A stretch of DNA of 64,000 nt from Actinomyces ruminis (GTDB lineage Bacteria; Actinomycetota; Actinomycetes; Actinomycetales; Actinomycetaceae), in NCBI RefSeq assembly GCF_002154335.2, contig NZ_MTPX02000039.1, positions 1 to 64,000 on the forward strand, read 5' to 3'. The position numbers and the translations under genes were made by a program. Position 1 is the stretch's first letter, and every line of letters starts with the position of its first letter. Of the stretch, positions 1,731 through 18,713 are shown one piece after another. The notes under the pieces are model-generated. The model searched no databases and had not been told where the DNA came from. It worked only from the letters and a program-made list of their open reading frames with translations.

Positions 1731-2536
1731 TCAGGACTCGGCGACGACGTCGAGCGTGCCCATGCCGTAGGCGGCGTGGGAGCCGACGTTGGTGAAGCGG
1801 GCCAGCGACATCAGCCGGGAGAAGACACGGGTAGTGGCAGCGCCGGCGACGCCGCTGATGCGCAGTGAACCCTCCGTGGCGAGGATGGAGCGGCTGGTCA
1901 GGCGTCCGCGCCGGTCGGCACGCGGCATGCCGAGGCTCACCCGCACCGACTCGGTGTGGTCCTGCATGGTGAGCACGCCGAGGTCGTCTCGGCGGAGCTG
2001 CGGCGGCTGGGTCTCGGGGGACCAGGCGTGCCAGCGGGCGTGCAGGCTCGTGGCGAGCTGTGCGGGAGTGACTCCGGGGATGTGGCGGCCGTGAGAGGTG
2101 AACACGGTGGGGCTCAGCAGAGTGATGTTCCAGGTGGTGGAGGCGTCGTCCGCGGCCAGTTCTGCCCAGGAGACGCGCTCCAGGATCTGCGCCTCGGTGG
2201 CGACGACCAGTGTGGTGCCCTCCGGGCTGCCGTCGCCGAGTGGGAGGACGCCGCCCCAGGCCAGCCAGCCGTCGAGGTTGTCCAGCAGACGGTCGTCGAG
2301 CAGGCGCAGTTCCGCGCCGAACATGCCGGGTTGCTCGGTCATCTGGCCGACGCTGTAGGCTTGGGGCCGTGCAGATTGTGCGGTGGCCTGGCCGCGAGGG
2401 AGGGGAGTTGGGCCGCGCGTTCGGAGGAGATGCCCTCGGGGAGTTCGAGCACGCGGCCCCAGGCGGCGTGCAGGCGGCGCGGCGTCAAGGAGAACCCATC
2501 GGGGGCGTCGAATTGGAGGAAGACGGTGCTGGGCAT
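1731..2536 (-). CDS. cas6: Cas6 pre-crRNA processing endoribonuclease (frameshifted)
   Basis: Cas6 cuts the repeat RNA of the array transcript to release crRNAs. The N-terminal part (MPSTVFLQFDAPDGF, then RRLHAAWGRVLE with a candidate catalytic His) and the C-terminal part (RPQAYSVGQM; ending FTNVGSHAAYGMGTLDV, the glycine-rich loop typical of Cas6) lie in two frames. They join near 2366 by one missing base, giving about 268 residues, normal for Cas6. The ATG at 2536 has GAGGAG upstream. The gene is transcribed away from the array, and the 286 bases between them hold the array leader. The frame change is probably a sequence error, because both halves are well conserved. Confidence 0.82.
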
Positions 2537-2822
2537 GCCTCGCTCCTCGGGGTGTGCGGGTGGGATGGGTTGGTGGCGGGGCGGGTGGCGCCGCCACGGG
2601 TTCAACTGTGTCACACGTGCTCGGGGCGGGGCGAGAAATCGGCTTAAACGCGTTGGCGGCCGCACGGGCAGGAGCCGGTAATGGGAATCGGCGGCGAATG
2701 GCGGTATCGCGGCGAAATGTGGTACTTTGCAGCCGGTGCCAGCCGACGACGTGGGGTGCTTGCGGAGCCGGTGGCGATCCAGGGCCTGGAAGTGGCGTCA
2801 TCACGCGGCTCTCAGCGCCAGG
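2537..2822 (+). promoter_or_regulatory. CRISPR leader / divergent promoter region
   Basis: This 286-base gene-free stretch separates the cas6 start (minus) from the first perfect repeat (plus). Its position at the end with intact repeats, opposite the degenerate terminal repeat, marks it as the leader. It must also carry the cas6 promoter. No strong -10/-35 pair could be assigned with confidence. Confidence 0.55.
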
Positions 2823-4303
2823 GTCAGAAAGCACCTCGCACCTGAAGGTGCATTAAGACTGGTCTCACCGTCCGCACTGGTCAGATTGCCGTTCGTCAGA
2901 AAGCACCTCGCACCTGAAGGTGCATTAAGACGGATTGTTTTTTCCAGTGTGAGTACCGAAGCGGCTGTGGTCAGAAAGCACCTCGCACCTGAAGGTGCAT
3001 TAAGACTCCTGCGCGAGGCCGTGACTGCGAACCCGGTCGAGCGTCAGAAAGCACCTCGCACCTGAAGGTGCATTAAGACGTCCGGGCGTGGCTTGCCGCC
3101 GGGACGCTTCAGCGTCAGAAAGCACCTCGCACCTGAAGGTGCATTAAGACTTGGAGGCCGCCGCATCAACCATCTTGTACCAGGTCAGAAAGCACCTCGC
3201 ACCTGAAGGTGCATTAAGACCGTACGCTCCGCGCATTCCCACTGCAGCTCCTCGTGTCAGAAAGCACCTCGCACCTGAAGGTGCATTAAGACCCCATCGA
3301 GCCCGAGGACGTCTTCCTGATCTCCAAGTCAGAAAGCACCTCGCACCTGAAGGTGCATTAAGACGTATAGGGGCGGATCTGGTACTGGCAGAACCGGGTC
3401 AGAAAGCACCTCGCACCTGAAGGTGCATTAAGACCTCGAAGCGGTCGTGACGGATCGTCGGGGCCTCGTGGAGGTCAGAAAGCACCTCGCACCTGAAGGT
3501 GCATTAAGACCCTCGGCCTCTTGCTCGCTCATCTCCCTATCCACGGTCAGAAAGCACCTCGCACCTGAAGGTGCATTAAGACGAAAGCAATAATGTCGCC
3601 CTTCTGCAACCCCTCAAGTCAGAAAGCACCTCGCACCTGAAGGTGCATTAAGACCGGTTCTGCGGTTCGCTGTGATACCGGTTGTCTGTCAGAAAGCACC
3701 TCGCACCTGAAGGTGCATTAAGACCCGATGCGGGTGCCTGTGTCGGTCCAGTCGATGGTCAGAAAGCACCTCGCACCTGAAGGTGCATTAAGACCAGAAC
3801 GAGCGGACACCGACTAGTACAGCGTGGTCAGGTCAGAAAGCACCTCGCACCTGAAGGTGCATTAAGACCCTCGCACTCGTCGGCTACGATCTCGGCATTG
3901 ATCGTCAGAAAGCACCTCGCACCTGAAGGTGCATTAAGACGTTGAGAGTGCTTCTTCTTCCAGTGCGAGTCCCGCAGGTCAGAAAGCACCTCGCACCTGA
4001 AGGTGCATTAAGACGCGGTGAATGACGCCAGAATGGGCTGAATCGGTTCAAGTCAGAAAGCACCTCGCACCTGAAGGTGCATTAAGACGCGGGCCAGGTC
4101 GCGAGGCAGGTCTTCTCCACGTCGAGTCAGAAAGCACCTCGCACCTGAAGGTGCATTAAGACGATGACGCCGCATCTCGTTGCGGGTAACGTCCGCGTCA
4201 GAAAGCACCTCGCACCTGAAGGTGCATTAAGACCAGTAGCGGCGCGTGCCAGTATGTCAGGGCCTCGTCAGAAAGCACCTCGCACCTGAAGGTGCATGGA
4301 CGG
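2823..4303 (+). CRISPR. CRISPR array, 21 repeats, 20 spacers
   Basis: A 37-base repeat begins GTCAGAAAGCACC and ends GGTGCATTAAGAC. Repeat starts are 2823, 2895, 2971, 3043, 3114, 3184, 3256, 3328, 3398, 3474, 3546, 3618, 3688, 3758, 3832, 3904, 3978, 4052, 4126, 4197 and 4267. The first 20 copies look identical; the last keeps 31 bases and diverges after GGTGCAT. Spacers are 33-39 bases, typical of type III. The repeat contains the hairpin GCACCT-GA-AGGTGC and ends in ATTAAGAC, a plausible 8-base 5' crRNA handle resembling ATTGAAAC/G. So the plus strand is the crRNA strand, the leader is at the cas6 side and the trailer faces RT-cas1. Spacers 2 and 16 share a related 20-base segment. Confidence 0.98.
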
Positions 4304-4319: not shown

Positions 4320-4733
4320 CAGGCATCGCGGGTCAAGGTGCTAGCGTCTGAGGTTGTCAGCGCTGCCGGAACTCCCGCGCCTCGGTCGTCGCCTCGGCGA
4401 TACCTCGCTGTCCGGGGTCCTCGGTATCCCTGCATGGCCCTCCGGGGAATCGATTGGGCATCGCTCTCAGCGTGCTACGACTCGATCCCTGCCCATTGCG
4501 GCTGCTGCAGGATTCGAGCGCGCCGCGCGGTGACGTACACAGGACAGCACACGGTGTCAGAACAGCTGAGTGATCAAACCCTCAGGCTACACGCGCACGG
4601 CCAGGTTCGTTGAGTTATGTTGCTCATTATGCAAGTTCCAGGGTTGGACTTGCTTTTCCCGCAGTTTTGCTTGCGCGGTCGAGAACTCGGCGCCATACTC
4701 GATCGCGGCAGCAAATCTGAAGAGAGGTTCAGA
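4320..4733. other. Gene-free stretch between array and RT-cas1
   Basis: About 410 bases with no convincing coding sequence. It must hold the promoter of RT-cas1-cas2; TTGAGT near 4611 followed by CATTATG near 4625 is a weak candidate. An in-frame upstream TTG/ATG extension from 4617 exists, but lacks a ribosome-binding site and adds 39 residues without resemblance to the family, so it is left out. Confidence 0.5.
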
Positions 4734-6686
4734 ATGACTCTCCGCTCGGGGCGCTACAAGCGTCCACGTGCACGCTCCGTTGCTTTCGATAACGTCGACA
4801 CATATGCCGATGTAGATGTGTTTGAATCGATCGTTTCCATCGAGTCTCTCCGCTCGGCCTGGAAGGCGGTGGCCCGTGACAAGCCAACCACGCTCCGCGC
4901 GCAGGACACGGAGATGACCGGCTTTACGGACGAGTTCCTGCACGCGCTTCGCGACGATCTTATCTCCGGCAGATACCGGCCAATGTGCTACGCGGGACGA
5001 GAGTCCGGAAGTTCAGGAGCTGCGTCCCTGACGGAGGTGGGTCTGCGCGATCGCGTGGTTGAGCGGGCCGTAGTCACCGCCGTCGCGCATCGAGCGGATG
5101 CAGTTCAAACGTCATGTTCCTTCGCCAATCGGCCCGGCCTCGGCGTTGAGGACGCGGTTGAACAGGTCGTAGCCATGCGCGACGCGGGAGCCGTGCACGT
5201 GATGCTAGCGCGCATCAAGGTTCCTGCGCCGGGTGAACTCGTCGACGCCGCTCTTACCGTGCTGTCGGAGTCGGTCAACAGTCCACGCACACATGCCGTG
5301 ATCCGCGAACTGGCGCGTGCTGGCGCATTGCAAGCCGCCGCCGACGGCACGGATTCGCCGTCGAGCCCGTGCCTTGCGCACCTGCTTATAAACCTCGCGC
5401 TGACTCCCATCGACCGGGAGATGTGCGACGCCGGCTTCGGCTATGTCAGGTACGCCGGAGACGTCGTCGTCTGCACCGAAGGCGAGTCCGACCAGCGCGA
5501 CGCGCTCGCGCTGCTGAACCGCTCGCTCACCGACCAAGGCCTTCAACTCGAACAGGACGCCATCACCATGATCACCTTCGACGAGGGCTTCTGTTACCTC
5601 GGGACCGACTTCACCGTCCGCCTGCCGGAGGACGGTTCACTTCGGCAGAGCCACGACTCCGTGGCGGATCAGGTTGTCTACGTGGGGCGCAACGGCTCGC
5701 GCGTCCATGTGAGTGAAGGCAGACTGATCGTGGACAGCGTCGACGGCATCCCGCAGATGTCCATCCCGCAACGCGCAGTTAGCCGGCTCGTGCTAACCGG
5801 GCACGTGAGCCTCTCGGCCGGTGCGAGGTCCTGGGCACTGGCCAACGGCGTCGAAGTGATCTTCCTGTCGTGGCGGGGTAGTTACCTGGGACAACTGGCA
5901 GGCTCGAGCTCGTCCACGAGTGCCCAACGACTGATCGCACAAGCCGCGCACGCCCAGGACGAGCAGCTGCGACTGCCGCTGGCGCGTGCCATCGTCCGGG
6001 CGAAGATCCGCAACCAGATACATGTTCTGGGGCGAACCGGCAGGCGCGCCCGCGATGACGAAGTCGCCTTCGTATGTCGCCGGCTGCGTTCCACCATCCG
6101 GGAGCTCGACCACGCGCTCACGACCGACGAACTCATGGGGCTGGAGGGCGTGGCCTCCAACGAGTACTTCGCCTGCCTGTCCAGCCTGGTTCCCGACGAC
6201 GTTTCCTTCCCCGGGCGCAGTCGTCGCCCACCCAGGGACCTGGCGAATGCGGCCCTGTCCTACGGCTACGCAATCCTGCAGGGCGAGGCCGTGGGCGCGT
6301 TGCTTGCCGCGGGTCTGGAACCGGCGCTCGGCGTACTGCACGCCTCCACCGACAAGCGTCCCAGCCTCGCCCTGGACCTCATGGAGGAGTTCCGGCCGCT
6401 GCTGGTTGACCGCACGGTTGTTGCCCTGCTGCGCACCCGCCGTCTGCGCCCCGCGCACGCTGCCGTGCACAACGACGGCGTATGGCTCAGCCGCGAAGGC
6501 AAGAAGATCCTGGTGAACGGCTACGAAGAAACCCTGCAACGCCACGTCAAGGGCGCGCTCCCCGGCTTCGCGGGCACATGGCGCCGTCACATCCATCACG
6601 AGGCACAGCTGCTGGCACGCGCCATCATGGAGCCGGATTACGAGTGGGTTGCGTCTCATGGCGGTAGTGGTCATCATCGCCTATGA
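4734..6686 (+). CDS. cas1: Reverse-transcriptase-like / Cas1 fusion with degenerate RT active site
   Basis: The protein has 650 residues. ATG at 4734 follows AGAGAGG by 7 bases. Residues about 30-300 follow the group-II-intron/CRISPR RT order: FESIVSIESLRSAWKAV, SGRYRP, LRDRVVERAVV, FANRPGLGVEDAV, LINLALTPIDREM, GYVRYAGDVVV, YLGTDF. The catalytic positions are lost: motif A Asp is Arg160 (MLARIKVP), motif B PQG is PSS (209-211), motif C YADD is YAGD (240-243), motif D Lys is Ala. Cas1 starts near residue 313 (QVVYVGRNGSRV) and keeps its metal ligands: Glu471 (LEG), His536 (GVLHAS), Asp548/Glu551 (DLMEEFRP). Cas1 integrates spacers; RT-Cas1 partners normally allow uptake from RNA, but here DNA-only uptake or a structural RT role is inferred. 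cas2 overlaps its 3' end. Confidence 0.93.
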   Translation: MTLRSGRYKRPRARSVAFDNVDTYADVDVFESIVSIESLRSAWKAVARDKPTTLRAQDTEMTGFTDEFLHALRDDLISGRYRPMCYAGRESGSSGAASLTEVGLRDRVVERAVVTAVAHRADAVQTSCSFANRPGLGVEDAVEQVVAMRDAGAVHVMLARIKVPAPGELVDAALTVLSESVNSPRTHAVIRELARAGALQAAADGTDSPSSPCLAHLLINLALTPIDREMCDAGFGYVRYAGDVVVCTEGESDQRDALALLNRSLTDQGLQLEQDAITMITFDEGFCYLGTDFTVRLPEDGSLRQSHDSVADQVVYVGRNGSRVHVSEGRLIVDSVDGIPQMSIPQRAVSRLVLTGHVSLSAGARSWALANGVEVIFLSWRGSYLGQLAGSSSSTSAQRLIAQAAHAQDEQLRLPLARAIVRAKIRNQIHVLGRTGRRARDDEVAFVCRRLRSTIRELDHALTTDELMGLEGVASNEYFACLSSLVPDDVSFPGRSRRPPRDLANAALSYGYAILQGEAVGALLAAGLEPALGVLHASTDKRPSLALDLMEEFRPLLVDRTVVALLRTRRLRPAHAAVHNDGVWLSREGKKILVNGYEETLQRHVKGALPGFAGTWRRHIHHEAQLLARAIMEPDYEWVASHGGSGHHRL

Positions 6687-6944
6687 CATCGCCTCCAACC
6701 GACGCCGCAACAAGCTGGCCACCTATCTTAAAGGCTGGGGATACCGGATCCAGGAGTCCGTCTTCCAGCTGCGGCTCAGCGCCGACGACCTCGACGAAGT
6801 ACGTCAGCACATCCTCGGGATCATCAACGACGCCAAGGACGTCGTGCACATCTACCGCTATGCGCCGCCTGTCAGGAGCGATCCGAGGTCTACGGGACGG
6901 CCGCAGCGCTCGACGACGTCGGCCTATACCGCGGGGTGTGGTGA
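6658..6944 (+). CDS. cas2: Cas2 (frameshifted near 6860)
   Basis: Cas2 is the small ferredoxin-fold partner that bridges Cas1 dimers in spacer integration. The N-terminus VVVIIAYDIASNRRRNKLA and SVFQLRLS are typical. The frame then breaks after HIYR near 6860. Restoring one base gives a Cys-x2-Cys segment (CAACQERSEVYG) and the canonical end VGLYRGVW followed by TGA at 6942-6944, about 95 residues. The missing base is probably a C in CGC(C)TATGC. ATG at 6658 lies inside the 3' end of RT-cas1 (29-base overlap), so translation is probably coupled. If the frameshift is real, Cas2 would carry an unrelated tail. Confidence 0.88.
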
Positions 6945-7084
6945 GAACGAGCGCGGTGGTCGGCAGTGAGCATCGGAGGCGAATGGCCATAACGCGTCGT
7001 CGTGCGCGAGAAACGGCGCAACCACCTCCACCGCCTTTGGCCGCTTCAGCTTGATACGGCTGGCCGTGTTCCTACGCCAAGGTA

Positions 7085-9316
7085 TTACCTGCGCCGATCG
7101 CGCCGGGACTTTTGCGGACACTTACGCCCGGAGTTCTGCTTCGGCTTCTCGATGCAGATCGGATCGCACGGGTTGTCCCCAAACATGTCACGGGGACTGA
7201 CCCCCTTGTTCTTGCGCGGGTTGCCGGTGGCGCCGTCGGTCTGGTTGTTCTCCCCGTTCTCCTTGAGGGTCATGTATCGAACCTCGTCCTTGGGATATCC
7301 GTAGGCGGCACGTTGCATGGCCTGCACCCATGGCATTTTGAGTAGACCGGACAGACTCGCTAGCTTGAAGTCTTCTGGGTCAACCATCGGTTCATCCAGG
7401 CCCTGGCACTCACTAAGAGCCGCGTAAGAATTCGCTAACTCGGAGCCTCGGCGCGCACGTAGCCCGTAATCGGCGATGCGCACCTCAAGCACACCAAGAC
7501 CGAAAGGCTTAGCAAGGCCCAACCGTAGATAGCCGCACCTGGGTTGAACGGAGTTCTGGTCGGGCTTACAACCTCCGTCAGGAACTAGGTTCTCTGGGGT
7601 AAGAACCCAAATAAGTGCGGCGAGCTCGTCGTGATTTAAGTTAGTGAACGATACCGTACAGCGCAGCACGCTACCAGGTTTGACCCACGACTTAGCCGTC
7701 AGCCGCACATCCGCATTGTGTTGCTCGCGACCACTCATTACCGCCGGTCTCGTGGCCTGTTTGGGGAATTCTCGCGAGTCGAGCACGGCTCTGTGGACCG
7801 GGTACGCAGCGGTTCCCAGCAGTTGTCCGGGGGAGAAGTACTCGGACCGCTTTAGCGGATCGGTGCCGTTCCGCCCGGTGGGAGTCTTACCAGAGGCATC
7901 GGTCAAGAACCGGCGTGCCGAGCTCGGTTTGGGCTCAAGAAGCGGTGTGAGCATCTTGCGGGCCTGGCTGATGTTAGCTCCGGAGGTATCGACGTGTCCC
8001 ACGCTGATGCGTCCACGCAACGCAATATCGCCTCCCGCAGCGCCCGGCTGGGGGTCGGGCACGACATAGCCGAACAGCCTGTCTGCCGCGGATGCCTCGT
8101 CCGCGGCAGACGCCGGTAGGACGCCTTGCTCAAGGGCAAGTCGATAAGGACTCGTACGGTAGGCGTGTCGCCCGATCATAGTCGGGACAACCTCGCGCAC
8201 AACAGGTCCGGCATTTGTCTCGTCAACGACTGCGAAGGCAAGTGTCTCGGCAGACAACGATGCTGCATCGAAAGTATCACCGCCGTTTCTGCGGGCATTC
8301 TGCACTGCCGCCGTCGCCCGGTTGGGGACATGCTGGTCGTTATCGCGGTTGCTCACATAGCTTTCGACGACAACGCGGTAGGAGTCTTGAATGGGGGCGC
8401 TGATCTTCACCTGAGTGGGGCCGCCTTCGGATACATCAAAGAACACGTGCTCATCATGCTTGCTGGCGAACAGTTTTGTCGGATCATTTCCGGAGGCGGT
8501 TCGGCATACGTAACCGGTGACGGACTCAAGCTGGGACACTTTGGCTACACCTCTGGGTATATGGAACACTTCGCGCATCTGTCCCTGATGCTGGATATGT
8601 GTCACTTGCCAATAGCAGTACTTATTCTTGTCTGGCTTGCCGTTGGTCAGCGGCTTATCTCCGTGTAGGCAGAGGGTGGCGTTGAAGACAATCTTCTCGC
8701 TGTGGGTGGTCAGGCGGTTCAGTTCGTTTAGTGGTATGTCTGCTTGGCCTATGTTTGCGACCCGAAGGCGTGCAGGTCGCACCATTGGGTAGTCATCTCC
8801 TTTGTATTTCCAGTAGTCATAAATGTCGCCGTACATGAGTTCAGCGAGCAGTTGGTCTCCCTCCTGACCTGTGATTCGGATGGGCACCAGGCCCAGGGCG
8901 CTGGCGGCGTCTCCCCGGTATGTCAGCGGCTTGGTGTCGGCCTTGCGGCGGCGTTGGCCCGGGACCTCGTCGGGGATGTCGCCGAACACGCGGAAACGCG
9001 AACAGGTCAGCGTTTCGTAGGCGCGGGAGATCATGCCTTTGACCATGGTCGGCGGCACCCGAAGCGTCTTTCCGTCGTCCTCAAGCGGAACCGTGACCAC
9101 GGAGCACTTCTGCTCGCCGAACACCAAGGGGGTGCGCGCCGTCATCTCCAGGTCGATCGAGCCCGACCATAGATCGGGCGCGAGGTGGTCGTGCCCAATC
9201 GCTCGGACGTCACGGAACAGGTTCGGCAACTTTCCAGCTTTCGCGAGGCGTTGAGCCGACTTACGTGGCACTGGAATACGGTTGACGGCGGAATGGAAAG
9301 GCTCAAACTCTGCCAT
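7085..9316 (-). CDS. TIGR03986-like RAMP (Cas7 with large insertion), type III-D effector subunit
   Basis: This 743-residue RAMP protein is the last gene of the cas10 operon. N-terminal RAMP features are LEMTARTPLVFG, then LRVPPTMVKGMISRAYETL in the position of the usual IPGSSLKG loop. C-terminal features are YLRLGLAKPFGLGVLEV, the glycine-rich loop of RAMPs. Its size and position match the TIGR03986 family and the 'Cas7-insertion' subunit recalled from the Synechocystis type III-Dv complex. It should be a backbone subunit contacting crRNA and target. Its start overlaps the csx19 stop by 14 bases. Codon use is less GC-rich than that of the flanking housekeeping genes, which suggests transfer. 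The C-terminus is basic (SGRKCPQKSRRDRRR). Confidence 0.75.
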   Translation of the reverse strand: MAEFEPFHSAVNRIPVPRKSAQRLAKAGKLPNLFRDVRAIGHDHLAPDLWSGSIDLEMTARTPLVFGEQKCSVVTVPLEDDGKTLRVPPTMVKGMISRAYETLTCSRFRVFGDIPDEVPGQRRRKADTKPLTYRGDAASALGLVPIRITGQEGDQLLAELMYGDIYDYWKYKGDDYPMVRPARLRVANIGQADIPLNELNRLTTHSEKIVFNATLCLHGDKPLTNGKPDKNKYCYWQVTHIQHQGQMREVFHIPRGVAKVSQLESVTGYVCRTASGNDPTKLFASKHDEHVFFDVSEGGPTQVKISAPIQDSYRVVVESYVSNRDNDQHVPNRATAAVQNARRNGGDTFDAASLSAETLAFAVVDETNAGPVVREVVPTMIGRHAYRTSPYRLALEQGVLPASAADEASAADRLFGYVVPDPQPGAAGGDIALRGRISVGHVDTSGANISQARKMLTPLLEPKPSSARRFLTDASGKTPTGRNGTDPLKRSEYFSPGQLLGTAAYPVHRAVLDSREFPKQATRPAVMSGREQHNADVRLTAKSWVKPGSVLRCTVSFTNLNHDELAALIWVLTPENLVPDGGCKPDQNSVQPRCGYLRLGLAKPFGLGVLEVRIADYGLRARRGSELANSYAALSECQGLDEPMVDPEDFKLASLSGLLKMPWVQAMQRAAYGYPKDEVRYMTLKENGENNQTDGATGNPRKNKGVSPRDMFGDNPCDPICIEKPKQNSGRKCPQKSRRDRRR

Positions 9317-9866
9317 TGTTTCCCCACCTTCCTGTGAAGAGCTCGTCCGTGAATACTGTGTTGCCGTAGACCGGTTCCTCGGCGAACACCTCGATACAGG
9401 TCATCACTTGAGGTTTTTGCGACGGGAGCGTCGCCCCGTGTTGGAGGTACTGGTTGTGCAGAACCAAGCACTCTTTGGAGCCTTCGGCTCGCGCGCCGTC
9501 TGGGTGGAAGACCCGTACCTCCGCCGATCCGCAGCCGTTCACCCACCTGATCTCGTGAGCCAGGACACGCTCGGCGGTTGTGGAATCAGAGTCGGATTGT
9601 TCAGCCGGGACAGCGGTCCACAATCGCAGTTCGTAGACCGTCTCGAGCGGAACTCGTCTCTGCTGGCCATCATCGAGAGTAAGCAGCGCGGCGTCCTCCC
9701 CGAGACCCGTGACCGAGTACGCCTTCGACGTCGTGTAGGCGATTCCTTGAGCGTTGCGGAGATGAGCGCGTGCATGCGACAACACCTCGGGGAGCGTTGC
9801 GCTCTCCAGGGTACGCACAGCCCAAAAGGCTCCCTGCAGCTCGGGCATTTTCAGCACTTCAGGCAT
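9303..9866 (-). CDS. csx19: Csx19-like type III-D protein
   Basis: A 187-residue soluble protein lying between two RAMP genes, overlapping both by a few bases, so it is in the effector operon. Visible segments are MPELQGAFWAVRTLESATL, EIRWVNGCGSAEVRVFH and NQYLQHGATLPSQKPQVM. I do not recognise a catalytic motif. The Csx19 (TIGR03984) call rests on length, the W/G-rich beta-strand pattern and operon position: in type III-D/Dv loci a protein of this size sits beside csx10 and the Cas7 fusions. It is probably a structural subunit of the complex. A profile search would settle it. Confidence 0.55.
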   Translation of the reverse strand: MPEVLKMPELQGAFWAVRTLESATLPEVLSHARAHLRNAQGIAYTTSKAYSVTGLGEDAALLTLDDGQQRRVPLETVYELRLWTAVPAEQSDSDSTTAERVLAHEIRWVNGCGSAEVRVFHPDGARAEGSKECLVLHNQYLQHGATLPSQKPQVMTCIEVFAEEPVYGNTVFTDELFTGRWGNNGRV

Positions 9867-11759
9867 CGGCGTCCTCCTTGACCGACTCGACTAGATAGGT
9901 CGACCATCCGGTTATGTCAGTGACTCCGCCAGCTTCGTTATCAGTGATCGATGCGTTGACCTCTTGTAGCCAGGTCAGCAGGTCGCGGGCAACCGCCTGC
10001 CCCGACGCAGGACTGTCACTCCGCTTGCGGAACTCCCGTCCGCCCCGCCCATCCTCGGTGCCAAGCCAGTCGATGCCGGAGATCCGGATCTTGCTGACCT
10101 CTACCTGACCGAGGCCGCGCGTACCCCGGCTTCCCAACGGCAGGGTGCCTGTGGCGAGTTCCGCCAGGACCAGCCCGAGTAGGCACCAGGCGGCCTTCGC
10201 CCGGTCGAGGGAGCGTTCGGGCGAGTGAGCACCGGTCGAGAGCAAGCGTTTGGAATCCAGTTCAATGACGATCGGCTCCCATGCCTGATCCCACAGCTCC
10301 TCTCCGTATAGGGCCCCCTCAGCGGCACCGCCGGTCCAGCGGTCCCCGGCGTTGTGGGTGACCCTACGCGGGTTCTTCCTAACGCGTCTGGTTACGGTGT
10401 CGAGCACGGTTAGGGCCCCGCGGTGCTCGGTGGTGCCGAACAGGTCCCGGACCAGGGAGGGATCGCTGGCGAGTTGATCGTGCACGCCGACCGTCGGATC
10501 GGACCAGTCCTCAAGCTCTTGACCCAGCGCTCCGACCAGCACGGTTCGTGCGATCCTGGACGCACGTGTGCGTAGGGCGCCACGCACCGAGCTGCCGGGG
10601 AGGACCAACTGAGAGCGGGCGGACGCGTTTGCTCGTTCTTTGGCTTCCTCAGGCCATTTGGTGCCGTCTGCGCGCAGTGGGACACTCGGCGTGTACTGCT
10701 GGTCTTTGCCCTCCGTAATTGTCTCCGGCGAGTTGCGCCGAGCGTTCCGCTCAGCTTGCTGCTTCTTGCTCAGGCCCGGCTCGGCAACAAAAACACCCGT
10801 GGGGGTGCTCCAAGTAATCGTGATACGAGTCGGGGCATATCCGGAGCAGTCAAGAGGCTGGATATCCGCCTGATCGGCTTGCCCCTCGCCCAGCCAGGAC
10901 TTGAGGGCTGCCGCATCATCGGGCGCAAAGGACTTCAGGGACCAGAAGTGCTCGCCATCGGGAACTACACGGCCCCATCCGGCGCCCTGCCGGGCACCGA
11001 GCCTGATGGCTCCGCTCCTGAACAGTCCGAGGATCAGAGAAAAGAGCTGCTCAACCTGCGCGGTGGTTGCCTGCGCGGGTGGGTGGGGGCTTCTGGCGTC
11101 TCCAACCCACCCGCGTCAGAGGGAGGCACTTGCGTGTCGGTGTATTCAGGGCGAGTGGCGTCCTCATCTGCAACTCGTCCCTCGGCCTTGATCACGAGTG
11201 TCAGACTGTTCCCGGCGGGAAGGAACTCGTGTTCGAAGAGCGCGCCGTCGCCGACGGCACCCCAGTAGCGGTCGATGGCGTTGCCGACTCTCAGTGGCAG
11301 GGCGCCATCCCGCGATGCCTGTCCCTCGGGAAGTGTGTTCTCCTCGGAATCTGTGGCCCGTTCGCCGTCGGTGTGCTCTGCGTTGCCGGTATCGGCGTCG
11401 CGCACTGCGGGCAGGCGAATGGCCTGAAAGGTAAGTGCGGAGGCACGTAAGGGCGAACCGTCTTGCTGTCCGTCCCCCTGGTCCCCCCACAGGCTTTGCA
11501 GCGCCTGGCAGCTCAACGCCGGAGCGAGCTGCTCGGCGTCATGCTCCTGGAGGAAGCGCTTGCAGGCGGAACGCACGGCACCTTTGATCGAGCGTCCCGT
11601 CAGGATTGGGCGGTCGTGGGCATCGCGGGCGAACCTCCTGGCCACCGCCTCACGGTCGAGCCCGGCTCGCTCCGGATCGACGACCTCGTCCACCCCGCCG
11701 GAGTGCAATGGGGAATCGGTTTTAAGCATGATGCTCAGTTCATAGCGCTTCACAGTCAC
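9859..11759 (-). CDS. Double-RAMP protein (Cas7-2x-like), frameshifted
   Basis: Two RAMP modules are encoded in one gene of about 633 residues after restoring one base near 11087, where the plus strand has a run of five G. Module 1 (from GTG at 11759) has DSPLHSGG, RDAHDRPILTGRSIKGAV and, in the second frame, FRSGAIRLGARQGAGWGRV. Module 2 has TWSTPTGVFVAE, VPLRADGTKW, QLVLPGSSVRGALRTRAS and GTRGLGQVEV. Each module keeps an Asp in the loop that cuts target RNA in Csm3/Cas7 (RDAHDRP; RADGTKW), so target RNA cleavage at two sites is plausible. It overlaps csx10 by 4 bases (GTGA) and csx19 by 8. It resembles the Cas7-2x subunit of type III-Dv. Confidence 0.75.
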
Positions 11760-13767
11760 GAGTGCCCTCCTGCGAGCCGTGTGGTGTGGGTGCCGATGAA
11801 GTCCTGCTGACTGAGCGAGCCGAGGGCGAACTCTGACATGTTCAAGAGCTCATGCCCGACGACGAAACGCCCAAAGCCCTGTGCGGTGAGATCACCGATG
11901 CCCGTTACGGCAAGTCGGTTGAGTGCTTTCCCGGACGCCGCGTCGGGGATTGCAACGTTGAGGACGGAGCCGGCTTGAATGGCCGTGCGCGTGGCTCTGG
12001 GTTGGCGGGTGGCTGCGGACCAAGAGTCCACCCGGCGATGCCGAATGCCCGCCTGGAACCGTCCCTCGGTGGGTAGGGGTAGCTCTAGGTCGACGTGATG
12101 CCGTTTGAACGCATTCACTAGATCTTGCAGGCTCCCTCCCGGGCCGAGTGCGCGCGACCGCACGAGGACGTCGGAGGTGAACCACAGGGTTGTGCGCCCG
12201 GATGCAACCGCCTCGGTCTTCGCCTCTCGCAGCGATGAGAACCGGCAATGGGCGCGGCCGTAGGTACCGCTGAGACGGCGTGCTCCCAGCCGGCGTCGAG
12301 CGGATCTGTGGCGGTCGTCAACTCGTTTAGATAGTCCGCCACCGAAGTGGCGTTCCTCAGCCTTTCGGACATCGTTACGGTGGCCTGCAGTCTGAGCCCC
12401 GTGGGCAGTGCACGCACAAGGAACAGCTGCCCGTCCTTGGCGGCGCCGGTGGCGGCGTCGTGAGCGGTCGCCTGACGACCGGTGAGCGATGGCGCACCCA
12501 TGCCGCCAATCAGTTCATTGCCGTCTTCGGGCATTAAGGGTTCTATACCGTCCTCCGACCTGGGCGGGTTCGCCGCCAGGCCATGGAACAGGAAACCGCC
12601 GCGCAACGGCGAGTGGACTTTGTCCGGTTCCCCGCACAGGAGACGGTTGGTAACGTCACTCCACCACTGGTCCGGCGGACGATTCTTCGGTATGGACAAC
12701 ACTAGCGGCATGGGTTTGCCGACGTGTCCGGCGACTACCGGAAGCGCGTCGGAAACCAACAGGTCACCATTGACGACGGCGTCGCGGACAAGATCACCGG
12801 CGCAGTGCCGGCGCAGCAGCCTATGTACCCAGGGCAGCAGCACGGTGCCGCGTAGGAAGTCCAGGGAACGAACTTCGTTAGACATGGGTACTTCGTAGGA
12901 GACCACGGGGGTAAGCAGGTCGATGGTCAAAGTCATCGTGTACCAGCTCTGTGCGTCTTCGGGCAGCCGTGCCGTCGGACCGGCCTGCGGGGTGTCCGTC
13001 GGACCGAAACCCTGCAGTCGGGGGGCCGGTGAAGGATGATCGGCGCCGGCATGCGGCACGGAAGGGTCGAGTTCAACCTCTTGTTCGATCTCCTGACCGT
13101 CATCTCGTTTCGGGCCAGGCATGTTCTTTAGGCACCACTTGCGCACTGCGCACTCGAGCGTCTCGTCGCCCTGGTGCTCAGAAGGACTGACGCCAATCAG
13201 GACGTCACAGTCGCCGTCGCCGTCGGACCGATTGGAGCCGATGCCCTTGACCAACAGTCCGGAGAGAGCCAGCACCAGCCGGGCTGCCGTCTGCTGCGAT
13301 TCGCTCCAGACCAGCGCTCTCCCCTCGGTGTCAACGTCCGCCAGCGTGGCCTCTCCGATCAGGCGGCAGGCTCCGGCCCGCTCAAATACCCGCAGGAAGT
13401 CCTCGCGGGCGGTTCCCGTCTTGTCATCTATGGACAGCGAGACGACCTCATGAATTGGGACCGCGGTGCCTTCAGGTGTGCGGGCATCGGAGAAGAAGAC
13501 GTGGCGCTGGTGCTCCGCCGTGCCGAAAAGAGCATCAACGAAGGCATGCCATATCCCGCCGTCGCCATGGTCCAGCGCCCGCGCCACCAGCGCTGCCTGT
13601 TCTCGTACCACGCCACTGAGCACGGTGCCGCGTACCACGGGCTGTCCGCGCTCGTCCTTCTCCACGACCGCGTTCACCCCGCCGGCTACGCCCGCACCGG
13701 TCGCCACGCCCCAGTCAGAATAAAAGTCGACGGTCACGGGTAAGGAGATGGGAGTGGTGTCGTTCAT
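11756..13767 (-). CDS. csx10: Csx10-like RAMP fusion, type III-D signature (frameshifted)
   Basis: About 670 residues after restoring one base near 12268. The N-terminus (LPVTVDFYSDWGVATGAGV, then DERGQPVVRGTVLSGVVRE) is the Csx10-type first RAMP module with its conserved Asp. A second module follows (LTIDLLTPVVSYEVP, VRSLDFLRGTVLLPWVHRLL). The end, in the other frame, reads TYGRAHCRF, then FGRFVVGHELL. Csx10 marks subtype III-D and in III-Dv complexes corresponds to a Cas7-Cas5-Cas11 fusion that grips the crRNA 5' handle. That assignment here is inference. ATG overlaps the cas10 stop (ATGA), and the stop overlaps the next GTG, so the operon is tightly coupled. Confidence 0.75.
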
Positions 13768-15848
13768 GGCCGGGCCTCCTTGTGCTTCGGCTGATTCATG
13801 CCGGTGACCTCCCGCAAGTAGGAGTCGGGTAGGAGTTCCGCCAACTCAAGCAGGTCGAACATGGCTTCTGGTCCACCGAGCAGAGCGCTGATGTCGGAAC
13901 GGGTCTCTTTACGGGCGTCATTCCAGTGCTTGGTGGCCTGCGTGCGTAGCGCGGAGCGCTGTTCTGGAGTATCCGCTTGTGCTGCGTCGGACAGGAGTTT
14001 GCGAATACGGGTGGCGCGAGTGCGCGGGAAGGGAACCGCCTCACGGCCGTCCCCAGAGTCGCGGAATCCCTTGAAGCACGCGACACGCCGACAGGTCGCT
14101 TCCCACTGCTCATGTTTAGGCGGGTCGGCCGCCGCGCGATCGTCGTCGCCGTCGACGGCGGGTGTCTCGGGGTTGGAGGTGCCCGCGTGCAGCGGCATAG
14201 GACCGACCAGTCTGAAGGGGCGGGTCGTGAATGCGGCGTAACTGCTAAGAGCCTCGGCGGCATCGAGGACGGTGGTGTCGAATAAGACGTGGAAGTCCAA
14301 GGTGGAGCACGGCGGGGCCTCGTGCTTGCCAATGTTCTTGGCGCGACTTACGAGCCGCTCGGCGAGCTCGTAGGCGATGTGGAAGGGGAAGTTGCGCCGC
14401 ACGACAGCGACGCCAGCAGCCGCCGTCATTGGTCCGGGGGTAACGTTTGGGTGTTCATCACCCGAAGTCGCAGCTTTCTGGACTCCGTGCAGGTATTTCA
14501 GGAGCGGATCGGCGGCCGTCTTCTCTTCGAAGTGGTTCAGGAAAGAGGCTGCGAAGGGGATCGCATAGTCGCCGCTGGTAATGACCGTGACGTCGTCGCC
14601 GCCGAGAATCACGGGAACCACCGGAACGACCGTGAAGTCGATCTGTCGACTCTGGTGATCTTTCTGGGCCCAACGGGCGACGTCGTACCAGGCGGCTGCG
14701 AAGGCGTCGGTGACAACAGAGTCCAACTGCGTGCTCACGGCAAGGACGAAGCGGCGCAAGGCGTCGGCGTCGTCAGGTTGGCAGCCGACCGCCGCTTGGA
14801 AGTCATCGCCGTTTACACATGCCTTGGCAAGATCCAGGTAACGCATGATGGCGCCGACACCGTTGCCGTCAATATGGATCACCGCAACCTTTGAGAGCCT
14901 GGTGACCTTAGGAAGCCCGCCCGGTTCCTGCACGGTGCCCCCGGTGAGCTGGCGGTCTTGAAAGGCCTGTTCGACGGCGTCCAGCGCCCTCTCCGCTTCC
15001 GCGAGTTCGCCGTCTCCTTCGCGCTGTTCGACAGCAGCGTCCGGTGTGTCTGCCGTACCGGTCAGGAACGCCTGCATGAGTTCCTGCCGGATCTGAGCCT
15101 CGTCGTCGTACTTGTCTGCAAGCTTGGTGGGGTCGCGGACGAGACGGCCTTCGTCCTGGTGAGGTTTCAGCCCGCGGTTGGCGCCGACGGCGCGGTCAAT
15201 CAACGCCCGACGGGACCAATAGGCCTCATAGCGCTTGACCCGGGAGGGGAGCGAGTGCGCCGTAGCGAGATCGTCCTTGGCTTCATCTTTGAGCCCGTCT
15301 GGGAGGAAGTTGCCCAGGGGAGGCGCAGCCGGTAGCACCGAGTCCTGCGAGCGGGCGAGAAAAGGCAGCTGGGAGAAGCGGGAATTCGCCGGCGTGCGCC
15401 CAAGCGCATACTCACTGGCCTTGGCATGGACGGCCTTGAGCAACTCCTCGGTAACCTGCTGCGCATCGCCCATGTCGACGAAGACTCCAGAGACATCGAT
15501 CCCGGGTGCCTGGGCGAGTGCAGTGCGGGTTACGCGGCCGATGACGTCTTTCGCCTGGTCGGGTGTGTCGACCATGAAAATGACCTTGCCTGAAGCGCGG
15601 GAGACCCACAGAGCGCTGAACCGGGTGGGACTGAGGTCATCCGGGGTGGGCGTGGTCCTCTGCATTACTTGATTCGCGGAGTCATGTGCCTTGGTCCAGG
15701 CATCCGTGATCCCTGCGGACTGCAGAGCGGTGTCCGTCCACTCCTTGAGCCGTACCAGCTGTGCCGATGCCCCGATGTTCTCCCGCAGGCGGGGTGAGGA
15801 GAAGATGTAGTTCTGGTTCCCGTTGGTCTCGATCATGACGAGCTGCAT
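13764..15848 (-). CDS. cas10: Cas10 (Csm1-like) type III-D, cyclase palm intact
   Basis: A 694-residue large subunit. Start ATG at 15848 was chosen because it has GAGAGG upstream and gives the III-D Cas10 N-terminus MIETNGNQNYIFSSPRLREN; a longer reading to 16091 lacks this support. The first palm has VIHIDGNGVGAIM (Asp near residue 327) and the second has ILGGDDVTVI (GGDD at 416-419), so cyclic oligoadenylate synthesis on target RNA binding is predicted. No convincing N-terminal HD nuclease motif is seen, so single-strand DNA cutting is doubtful. It is first in the five-gene operon cas10-csx10-RAMP-csx19-RAMP and divergent from the CARF/HEPN-like gene. Confidence 0.92.
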   Translation of the reverse strand: MQLVMIETNGNQNYIFSSPRLRENIGASAQLVRLKEWTDTALQSAGITDAWTKAHDSANQVMQRTTPTPDDLSPTRFSALWVSRASGKVIFMVDTPDQAKDVIGRVTRTALAQAPGIDVSGVFVDMGDAQQVTEELLKAVHAKASEYALGRTPANSRFSQLPFLARSQDSVLPAAPPLGNFLPDGLKDEAKDDLATAHSLPSRVKRYEAYWSRRALIDRAVGANRGLKPHQDEGRLVRDPTKLADKYDDEAQIRQELMQAFLTGTADTPDAAVEQREGDGELAEAERALDAVEQAFQDRQLTGGTVQEPGGLPKVTRLSKVAVIHIDGNGVGAIMRYLDLAKACVNGDDFQAAVGCQPDDADALRRFVLAVSTQLDSVVTDAFAAAWYDVARWAQKDHQSRQIDFTVVPVVPVILGGDDVTVITSGDYAIPFAASFLNHFEEKTAADPLLKYLHGVQKAATSGDEHPNVTPGPMTAAAGVAVVRRNFPFHIAYELAERLVSRAKNIGKHEAPPCSTLDFHVLFDTTVLDAAEALSSYAAFTTRPFRLVGPMPLHAGTSNPETPAVDGDDDRAAADPPKHEQWEATCRRVACFKGFRDSGDGREAVPFPRTRATRIRKLLSDAAQADTPEQRSALRTQATKHWNDARKETRSDISALLGGPEAMFDLLELAELLPDSYLREVTGMNQPKHKEARP

Positions 15849-16211
15849 GGGGATCCTCTCGGAGCGGGACGGGACTGGCGTCGGGACGTGTGTAGTCTGC
15901 CACTCGATCGTGAGCGGTGCCACGCGCTTGGTGGTAGCGTCCCACCACACGGGACAGGCGACCGGCGTCGCGAGCGTGTCGATCCGCCCGGCTCGCGCGA
16001 CCGCCCTGCTCACTGTCTGGAGAGGACCTGACATGACCCTGCCCGTGCATCTTGCTGGTGAAGCGAAGTCCGTCGGGTGCGTACAAGCCACCGGCCGCGC
16101 ACAGCTTTGCAGTAGAGCGGTGCCGCGAGCACGAGTCGGCTCTAGCGTGGGAATTGCGTGTGTGCCTGTTGTATTCGCTGCGTTTAGGTACTAACCGAAA
16201 GGAATCGCAAG
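15849..16211. promoter_or_regulatory. Divergent promoter region between cas10 operon and CARF/HEPN-like gene
   Basis: 363 bases separate the starts of two divergent transcription units. The plus gene has AAAGGAA 9 bases before its ATG; the minus gene has GAGAGG. An open frame extending cas10 upstream runs through most of it but carries no family resemblance. No clear operator dyad was found. Confidence 0.5.
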
Positions 16212-18713
16212 ATGACAACGATAACCGTCATCCACCCGGTGGGGCAGGGAGACCTCGGTAACGACATCGTCGAAATGCAAAAAGAGGAACGTCTGAATGC
16301 GCAGGCGGCTCGACAGAAGGAGCTGCAGCGGCAGCTGACTGAAGCTGACGCCGAGGTGTTGTTCAATAGGCTGTTGAACATTCCCCCGGATGACCGCGGG
16401 CGCCCGGGCCGCTTCGAACGCACCCCGCTAGCGCTGGTGCTGGAGGCGCTGCGCGGTGAGGGCACTGCCGTGCGGGTGATTCTCCTGGGCACGGCCAGTG
16501 GCAGTGAGGGCACCGAGACCGACGTCGTGGCCATGTTGCTGGAGCAGGCCTACAACCGCCCTGACGTGAAGGCCAGACTTGAGGAGCATTTCGGGCTGGC
16601 GCTACAGGTCGAGGCCTATCAGAATGGCAATCTCCTCGAGCGGGAGTGCGTCGACGGACTGCGTGGGTGGCTGGACGCCGATGACGGGCTCAAGAATGGG
16701 AAGGTCATCGTCTCTGGGATTGCTGGGGCAAGCACGATCGTGTTTGCCGCCATGGGGATGGCCGACCAGATGGGGTTGGACTGGCGACTCGCCGTCGCCC
16801 CGGAGGAGGGAGAGAAGCGGGCCGTGTTCCTGGACCGCGCCGCCAACCGGGTCGCCCCGTTCTACTGGCTGCGATCCCTCGGATACCCCAAGCAGGCCTC
16901 GGACTGGGCCGAGACCGCGGGGGCGGCGTCCGCGGTGCCGGAGGGGGAGCAACAGGCGACGGAGACGTTCGCCGCCGCTCTGGATCGCGCCCGAAACGGG
17001 GATGACAGGGAGCCGGGAGCACTTGCCGCATTGGTGGTCACCGACATGGCGCGCGCCGACCACGGTGCCGGTCTGGCGCTGCGGGCGTGGGCGGAACGGC
17101 GCTACTGGAGTCTGTATGAGGACGAAAGGGATCACGCCAAGACGCATGGACGCCAGCCGCGATCTCCGTTGTGTTTCGTGAAGGAGGACGGTCGGTCGAA
17201 GAAGCTCGGTGAGGTCATAGACGATGCTGAGAGCGATCTAGCCCTCTTAGGCGACGGCTGCCCCGGGTCGACTGTATGGCTCGCCTCCGCCGGGCCGCTC
17301 AACGACCTGGCTAAGCGCACCGTTCACGACGGTGAGGCGCCACGCGCCGAGGACTGGGATGTGGTTAAGGGCCAGCCGGAGCTCAGTCAGGTGCTGCCGG
17401 AGTGGGTAACACGGCCGAGCCGACGCCCGGTCTTGTACGTGTTCGGTTGCGGAACGCGCTTCCATCGGCCAGCCATCCCGGAGCGTGTGCTGCATGCCGA
17501 GCCCGATCGCGAGCTACGGCGGGCGGTTCCCGGGGCCTTGTTGGATCGGGGCGCGCCGACTGCGGGACCGGCCGAACACCCCGCCCTGCCGGTCGAGTTC
17601 GTCATCCTGCACTCCGCCCACCCCGACTCCAAGAACACAGCCGAACTCAACTGGCAGACCGTCGTTGCCGACGGTGCAAACCAGGAATGGGAACTGACCG
17701 ATCCTGGCTGGAGTCTCCTGGACTACGGCGAGGGGGACTCTGGGCATCGGGCGGTGCCCGAGGCGATGCGAAGAGTTCGCAAGCGTGTAAGCGCAGTTCT
17801 GGAGCAGCGGATGCCATCCGCGGTGGTGATTGTGGGAACCGGAGAGAAGTCTGCGGCCTATGGCGCGCTCGAGGCAGCGCAAGAGTGGTGCGCGGTCAAC
17901 GCTGTGCCGTTGTTTCTCCAGACTTTCGTCGATGAGACCCAGGACAACAAAGAGCCGGCATCGCAGTTTCACCGGATCGCCCTGCGCGACGACGCCGAGG
18001 AGGCCTTGCGGCGCGCCGCGGCCATCAGCCTGCGCAGCCTCAACCTGCTCAGCGCCGTGCGGGTGCTGGCCGCCGGTGACCGGGGCATGGACGAGCTGGC
18101 GGATCGCTGCGAGGAGCTGCGCCGGGCATACGCCGAGGCGCGGCAGGCGGAAAGGCTCGACGACCACGCTGGAGTGATTGTGGATGTGCTGCGCACGGTA
18201 CGCCTCCTATTCGACGGAGCGGACTGGCTGACGCAGGCGCGGCTGGTGGTGGCTGTGGCAGAGGCCGTGCATACGCGGTGGCTTTCTAAGAGGGGCCAGA
18301 GCCTGCTTCAGGAGCCCGACACGCTGCTGAATAAAGAGGAGGTAGCCGAGCGGAAGAATACGAACACTAAAGCCGCGGTGGCATGTCTAAAACGGGGAGA
18401 TCTCTTGCGTCTTCCCTACGAGGTGCGCGACAGGCTGGTGATCACCCATGGGCGTTCCACCGTTCAGGAAGCGTTGGATCGTGCTTTGGATGAGCTGCGG
18501 GTGGACGCTTCCGAGGGATTCACCTTCGCTGAGTTGCTGGATGCGCTTATCGCGCGCTTGGAATGTGACGCCAAGGGGAAGGCGAAGAGTGGCGACGAGA
18601 GGGGGAAGAAGAGCTGCGGCGAGAGTAAGGACAGCTTCGGCACGCTGGACATCGGTGCGTCCTGGGCCGCTAGGTTCGCGCAATTGCTGCGAGAGGTCGA
18701 GGCGCGCTCGTAG
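16212..18713 (+). CDS. CARF/HEPN-like CRISPR ancillary effector (Csm6/Csx1-like candidate)
   Basis: An 833-residue protein divergent from cas10. Two Rossmann-like blocks are visible. The first is near residues 85-190 (AVRVILLGTASGSEGTETD, then GKVIVSGIAGASTIVFAAMG); the second is near 400-620 (PVEFVILHSAHPDSKNTAEL, then SAVVIVGTGEKSAAYGALEA). Both resemble CARF domains that bind cyclic oligoadenylate. The C-terminal third is helical and contains YEVRDRLVITHGRS with Arg739-Asp-x5-His746, matching the R-x4-6-H RNase motif of HEPN domains (second residue polar, Gly after His). A Csm6/Csx1-type RNase switched on by Cas10 product is the natural inference. I do not recognise a named family of this length. 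The tail is Lys/Gly/Ser rich. Confidence 0.6.
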   Translation: MTTITVIHPVGQGDLGNDIVEMQKEERLNAQAARQKELQRQLTEADAEVLFNRLLNIPPDDRGRPGRFERTPLALVLEALRGEGTAVRVILLGTASGSEGTETDVVAMLLEQAYNRPDVKARLEEHFGLALQVEAYQNGNLLERECVDGLRGWLDADDGLKNGKVIVSGIAGASTIVFAAMGMADQMGLDWRLAVAPEEGEKRAVFLDRAANRVAPFYWLRSLGYPKQASDWAETAGAASAVPEGEQQATETFAAALDRARNGDDREPGALAALVVTDMARADHGAGLALRAWAERRYWSLYEDERDHAKTHGRQPRSPLCFVKEDGRSKKLGEVIDDAESDLALLGDGCPGSTVWLASAGPLNDLAKRTVHDGEAPRAEDWDVVKGQPELSQVLPEWVTRPSRRPVLYVFGCGTRFHRPAIPERVLHAEPDRELRRAVPGALLDRGAPTAGPAEHPALPVEFVILHSAHPDSKNTAELNWQTVVADGANQEWELTDPGWSLLDYGEGDSGHRAVPEAMRRVRKRVSAVLEQRMPSAVVIVGTGEKSAAYGALEAAQEWCAVNAVPLFLQTFVDETQDNKEPASQFHRIALRDDAEEALRRAAAISLRSLNLLSAVRVLAAGDRGMDELADRCEELRRAYAEARQAERLDDHAGVIVDVLRTVRLLFDGADWLTQARLVVAVAEAVHTRWLSKRGQSLLQEPDTLLNKEEVAERKNTNTKAAVACLKRGDLLRLPYEVRDRLVITHGRSTVQEALDRALDELRVDASEGFTFAELLDALIARLECDAKGKAKSGDERGKKSCGESKDSFGTLDIGASWAARFAQLLREVEARS

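Follow-up and report, generated by a model that had tools for sequence, protein, structure and literature searches.

The closest described relatives of the protein discussed here are fusions of a reverse transcriptase (RT) to Cas1, or Cas1 proteins derived from such fusions. In the Cas6-RT-Cas1 of Thiomicrospira (7KFT/7KFU; PMC8102632) the substitutions D540A and K574A are each reported to abolish RT activity, at a cost of 20-33% of DNA ligation and more than 80% of RNA ligation. A Marinomonas Cas1 from which the RT has been deleted still takes up spacers from DNA, according to PMC11014452. Natural loss of the RT from an RT-Cas1 lineage is mentioned, as data not shown and within a Firmicutes set, for the Cas1 of Butyrivibrio sp. 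YAB3001, of whose RT some residues beyond domain 7 are all that is left (PMC6753606). RT-Cas1 proteins of Actinobacteria form RT-CRISPR clade 10 in Toro 2017 (PMC5541045), which lists RT clades and in whose text a term search found neither inactive or degenerate RTs nor YADD, and CRISPR-associated RT-like sequences of Streptomyces with an altered motif C, WGDD, were set aside by their authors (PMC6013744).

The protein we describe comes from a stretch of 64,000 nucleotides of Actinomyces ruminis (contig NZ_MTPX02000039.1), referred to below as the window. It resembles clade 10 in being a fusion accompanied by type III effectors, and the likeness is drawn from these features. Its Cas1 catalytic His and the region of the RT-helix align with the Thiomicrospira protein, which, however, has an N-terminal Cas6, an FADD motif and the RT-helix Lys, whereas in the window protein no Cas6 is fused and the first Asp and the Lys are gone. 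Like the Marinomonas mutant it is a Cas1 seemingly without RT activity, but that mutant is a laboratory deletion and the window protein a natural one in which the dead RT is retained; unlike it, the Streptomyces WGDD sequences keep both Asps of motif C and are distant from group II intron RTs. In the openly available papers that we searched, no RT-Cas1 with an intact Cas1 is described as keeping a dead RT, and term searches of the text of PMC5513706, PMC5541045, PMC6013744 and PMC6753606 returned a single mention of RT loss, that of Butyrivibrio.

Results

The fusion gene and its parts are as follows.

4734..6686, + strand: rt-cas1 fusion, 650 codons; RT-like half at residues ~28-300, Cas1 half at 314-632
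4815..5633, + strand: degenerate RT domain (residues 28-300), from RVT_1 below cut-off, TIGR04416, PADLOC RT and alignment
5211..5213, + strand: motif A position, R160; Asp in each of the 13 motif-intact rows
5346..5366, + strand: motif B region, GTDSPSS (205-211) replacing G(I/V/L)AQGS or PQG
5448..5462, + strand: motif C, RYAGD (239-243) replacing R(F/Y)ADD
5559..5561, + strand: motif D position, A276 replacing Lys, counterpart of RT-helix K574 of 7KFT
5673..6629, + strand: Cas1 domain with E471, H536 and E551/E552

The frame is open over the 650 codons from the ATG at 4734 that a preliminary description of this DNA had reported, or over 689 from an ATG at 4617. Pfam Cas_Cas1 matches residues 315-599 with 277 bits. 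The RT half scores 55 bits with TIGR04416 and 103 bits with PADLOC RT, so that an RT-related domain is fused N-terminal to Cas1, although RVT_1 itself (23.9 bits, residues 209-291) falls under its Pfam cut-off of 29.6. The same profile gives 91-95 bits in three relatives with intact motifs and 83 in the relative G521, and at E 0.01 finds nothing in six relatives with a dead RT or none (G542, G518, G539, G528, G268 and G149); the Cas1 profile stays at 250-280 bits in the relatives scored with RVT_1, including these six.

We scored seven positions, the Asp and Phe of motif A, the Gln and Gly of motif B, the two Asps of motif C and the Lys of motif D. The motif-intact reference comprised 13 proteins (G419, G406, G420, G424, G415, G400, G438, G401, G470, G417, G563, G457 and G452, with G563 counted as intact despite a Leu at the motif B Gln); a separate MAFFT alignment of 7 loci (8 frames) added further readings of motifs and indels. 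Against this reference six of the seven positions are altered in the window protein. The preliminary description was right that Arg160 replaces the motif A Asp, that PQG of motif B has become PSS (the alignment used places Ser and Pro at the Gln and Gly), that YADD has become YAGD, with G242 as the first Asp, and that the motif D Lys is now Ala; the Phe at A+5 is also an Ala. Its statement that every catalytic position is changed went one too far, as the second Asp of motif C, D243, survives, alone among the seven. The motif A and C Asps and motif D Lys of RNA-acquiring RT-Cas1 proteins are thus not all present. Glu471, His536 and the acids of DLMEEF (548-553) are kept in the Cas1 half by alignment, again as described. 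Judged by its residues, the RT half is dead and the Cas1 half looks active, and the alignments support both statements.

An AlphaFold2 model of the protein (mean pLDDT 76.8, pTM 0.53; built on an alignment of 18 rows, intact RTs among them) retains an RT-like palm, in which R160 sits in strand 155-162 and A241-G242 lie where strand 236-240 turns into strand 243-248. Its best fold match is 7kfu_C, a Cas6-RT-Cas1 chain (E 1.3e-21, TM 0.37 by query). Neither the alignment nor the model offers another placing of the catalytic Asps; profile, alignment and predicted structure together confirm that the residues at motifs A and C are altered. When G521 is aligned to 7KFT, the first Asp of its FADD falls at chain position 543 and its motif D Lys at 577. 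Allowing for an offset of 3 residues, with which H873 also agrees, these are D540 and K574, and when G521 is in turn aligned with the window protein they correspond to G242 and A276. Given the effects of D540A and K574A, and given that an RT-deleted Marinomonas Cas1 still acquires DNA, we would predict that the window protein integrates prespacers of DNA but not of RNA.

The genes around the fusion are listed next.

1731..2834, - strand: cas6; match over ORF residues 153-365, true start probably further in
2823..4297, + strand: CRISPR array, 37-nt repeat, 22 repeat positions, the last, nearest rt-cas1, degenerate
6649..6969, + strand: cas2, overlapping the end of rt-cas1; PF09827, 59 bits
7085..9316, - strand: type III-D Cas7-like RAMP protein (TIGR03986/Csm3-like), by profile matches
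9303..9866, - strand: csx19; PADLOC Csx19, 157 bits
9859..10608, - strand: Cas7 (III-D), by profile matches
11034..11759, - strand: Cas7-like RAMP protein, by profile matches
12118..13767, - strand: Cas7 (III-D)-like RAMP protein, by profile matches
13764..16091, - strand: cas10 (III-D), by PADLOC; GGDD motif readable in the sequence
16212..18713, + strand: CARF-HEPN-CARF ancillary effector; PADLOC, 706 bits

With Cas10d, Csx19 and III-D Cas7 proteins (PADLOC) adjoining an array in which we counted 20 spacers of 25-50 nt, the locus is of type III-D. csx19 and Cas7 genes also lie near the RT-Cas1 loci of G542, G518, G528, G268 and G351, and in the 20 kb taken for G539 we found, besides cas2, no more than a partial Cas7-like gene; arrays are present at all seven loci. 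The CARF-HEPN-CARF gene is divergent from cas10; similar stretches turned up only near G470 and G410, in a comparison where many of the stretches stop short of that place. At four loci (L145, L146, L158 and L164) the gene for the large Cas7-like protein is present twice, as a diverged copy (~24-34% to that of the window) beside a closer one. At G351 (L171) an array of ~69 repeats lies beside an RT-Cas1 broken by frameshifts.

A Cas1 match at E 1e-10 was found in 70 of 213 genomes of the family, and reading of score, neighbours and frames assigned 30 genomes to the RT-Cas1 lineage of the window. Thirteen of these have intact RT motifs, among them G417 with a damaged Cas1 end; in six more (G426, G422, G402, G410, G416 and G514) the motifs are intact and the gene has a stop, frameshift or break. 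G521 differs only by Asn for the motif A Asp. A dead RT is joined to an open Cas1 frame in five (the window, G542, G518, G539 and G528) and to a broken Cas1 in one (G351), three have no RT match (G268, with Cas1 open, and G425 and G531, with Cas1 broken), and G398, in fragments, was left unscored for RT state. The window protein is therefore not unique, a point on which the preliminary description had called for a search. Outside the Actinomycetaceae, G149 lacks motifs A and C, and a search of 396 genomes of the phylum added one full-length match, G704, with motifs A, B and C intact and D not seen. At the loci of the best 80 of 567 relatives, among which the named genera Actinomyces, Schaalia, Pauljensenia and Buchananella lead, 18 frames match both RT and Cas1 profiles; a contig scan with the RT half alone as query found no relative.

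Several of these proteins show features of their own. The motif A of G521 (L037) reads TNIEDFF, with FADD and motif D intact, and this Asn is possibly a first step of inactivation. The dead-RT protein of G542 (L058) has an insertion of ~49 residues inside Cas1, the RT-Cas1 of L074 reads FGDD at motif C where others have FADD or YADD, and G206 (L034/L004), from outside the Actinomycetaceae, has intact motifs and an in-frame TAG between RT and Cas1.

On the Cas1 tree RT inactivation needs four changes, three of them forced by starred branches. AU tests allow the window to join the G518 group (0.148), also with G539 (0.345) and with G542 (0.158) added; the window and G518 have none of nine derived residues in common. 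At conserved columns 13 of 23 derived residues are common to G528 and G351, against 2.7 expected, so both probably descend from an ancestor that was already dead. Inactivation has had at least two origins, counting the distant G149, which stood outside the AU tests, and probably more. With up to five candidates scored per genome, one Cas1 at E 1e-10 was found in each of the window genome, G518, G528, G539 and G268, and one RVT_1 match in the window genome; in that genome (82.6% complete, five of ten Cas1 candidates scored) a second RT or Cas1 may have been overlooked.

We compared 554 spacers from 23 loci, with ~20 kb searched per locus; 264 of them come from seven dead or RT-less loci, a subset that leaves out G425 and G531 and includes G351 with its broken Cas1. 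At 75% identity or more no pair is shared between any two of the 23 loci, and the arrays have therefore turned over since the loci diverged, also within G518, G528, G268, G351 and G531, which form one starred Cas1 clade. This supports the view that loci with a dead RT filled their arrays after they had diverged. No confident protospacer emerged from the phage, plasmid and viral-contig searches: spacers gave weak matches to Gordonia and Microbacterium phages (E 0.5 at best) and to plasmids (E 5), four exact 22-nt spacer cores had no match among viral contigs, and the long G539 array none among phages at E 1. We also considered A-rich spacer ends as a trace of RT activity. An excess in 160 spacers from nine motif-intact loci (P 0.026; P 0.005 against the 264 dead-locus spacers) was uneven between loci and absent from 118 replication spacers (P 1.0), and the signal was rejected.

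Discussion

We consider it likely that the window encodes a probably working Cas1 integrase fused to an RT that no longer polymerises, that acquisition is from DNA only, and that this is a path taken recurrently in the Actinomycetaceae. RT-Cas1 and Cas2 would insert DNA prespacers into the III-D locus's own array (2823-4297), and acquisition from RNA would have gone with the RT active site. Along the path the active site would be lost first and Cas1 kept, after which the RT would either erode and be removed or persist as a remnant with a non-catalytic, structural part to play, the retained remnant being mainly the C-terminal palm that adjoins Cas1. What we show is the loss of catalytic residues, the intact Cas1 residues, the gene context, relatives at other stages and arrays that have no spacers in common; the lack of RT activity, the DNA-only acquisition and any structural role of the dead RT we infer. 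Against this account count the protospacer searches without a confident match, the spacer-end signal that did not replicate, the flat codon test for relaxation on the window branch, the chance of an overlooked second RT or Cas1, the few cas genes found at G539, and the fact that G351, G425 and G531, whose RT is dead or absent, have a broken Cas1 as well. An error of assembly or sequencing is very improbable. The assembly is fragmented (99 contigs, 82.6% complete), but the frame is open, the neighbouring genes are normal, the catalytic changes are many and separate, and no single read error can yield six changes and about ten in-frame indel events; similar dead RTs also occur in other genomes, one of them on a chromosome record (L067, Pauljensenia hongkongensis).

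The preliminary description took the open frame as a sign that the RT half is under selection, and here we part from it: its dead RT and active-looking Cas1 stand, but RT and Cas1 are one polypeptide, a stop or frameshift in the former would also remove the latter, and Cas1 needs the frame. An RT that is no longer needed could thus erode unconstrained, its frame held open only by the Cas1 downstream, with RT-less Cas1 proteins such as G268 as later stages, and we give such simple decay close to an even chance. In neutral decay simulations (substitutions only, stops forbidden, 60 runs from each of four relatives, one of which, G521, already has the motif A Asn) the RT-profile score of the window, 225-228 bits, was reached in 34-60 of 60 runs (57 from G521, 34 from G438, 54 from G415 and 60 from G470) and that of G542 in 43, 6, 41 and 56 of 60. 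Conserved positions other than the catalytic ones are lost about as neutral decay predicts (P 0.06-0.60 for the window, 0.06-0.88 for G542). The RT half of the window has had about ten in-frame indel events, an alignment-dependent count, against 0-1 in six relatives and one in its own Cas1 half; G438, motif-intact and outside those six, has one long insert. The terminal-branch ratio of RT to Cas1 is 4.2 in the window against 0-3.4 in all 17 rows that lack multiple catalytic changes (0.8-2.8 if only the ten whose Cas1 branch is 0.1 or longer are taken), and reaches 6.5-19 in G542, G518, G539 and G528. NG86 ratios for the RT half are 1.40 between G518 and G528 and 0.91 between G518 and G351, and in G268 only ~55 alignable residues are left upstream of an intact Cas1. 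What decay accounts for poorly is where the losses fall. From five starting sequences, with 200 runs each, it takes on average 1.8-3.1 of the seven catalytic positions, where the window has lost six (P 0.000-0.040); G542 has also lost six, against neutral means of 1.4-3.0. At the other conserved positions the window has lost 16 of 57, as many as the divergent motif-intact G514 (16) and about as many as G206 (15), both of which carry a stop, either within the RT or behind it; G542 has lost 15 of 57.

The other course, in which the dead RT is kept for Cas1 as a wedge in its structure or as a module for handling prespacers, much as the RT-helix reaches the Cas1 active site in 7KFT, we regard as a serious candidate, if somewhat short of even odds. 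It draws on the shared dead remnant of G528 and G351 (162 codons), where codon likelihood gives an omega of 0.023 (LRT 100.7 against 1), compared with 0.23-0.92 and an LRT of at most 32.5 in 30 neutral controls, a result that also speaks against simple decay; NG86 is 0.37, and the three codon positions are 76/76/56% identical compared with ~80/77/80% in the controls. Between G518 and G528 the C-terminal part of the RT has an omega of 0.025 (LRT 5.6) and the N-terminal part one of 0.535 (LRT 1.7), although that alignment, at 17-22% identity, is saturated and NG86 over the whole RT half is the 1.40 given above. The bias of losses towards catalytic positions (Fisher P 0.0053 in the window, 0.0039 in G542) fits retention too, with the reservation that the positions tested for excess loss are also those by which rows were classed as dead. 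Residues 211-280 are predicted with block pLDDT values of 80-90 in the window and 77-89 in the strongly eroded G539, but the predicted fold is aided by the intact RTs in the alignment. G268 manages without most of the RT, and as the window and G518 have none of the nine derived residues in common, the G528-G351 result may not carry over to the window. We set aside branch-wise codon omegas as support for either relaxation or constraint, because synonymous sites are saturated. With the window and G542 free, the RT half gave an LRT of 9.6 (background 0.022, window 0.068, G542 0.232) and the Cas1 half one of 1.1; relaxation on the window branch alone gave an LRT of 0.0 for the RT half; and the omega below 1 on that branch (LRT 35.8) covers a span that includes time before inactivation.

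Selection can, apparently, hold a dead RT remnant in the Actinomycetaceae. We would tentatively propose that the family harbours pseudo-RT-Cas1 proteins in which a dead palm under purifying selection serves a structural or regulatory role in a DNA-only Cas1, a state reached more than once from active RT-Cas1. RT-Cas1 is a natural RNA recorder, and the machinery of the window probably still records DNA, with the means to record RNA gone. In this one family, RTs with intact motifs, freshly damaged ones, dead ones and loci that have no RT at all occur together, with III-D effectors that are similar. These coexisting stages amount to a natural experiment on keeping or dropping RNA-derived immunity, and they allow a test of whether Cas1 benefits from the RT palm in some way other than polymerisation.
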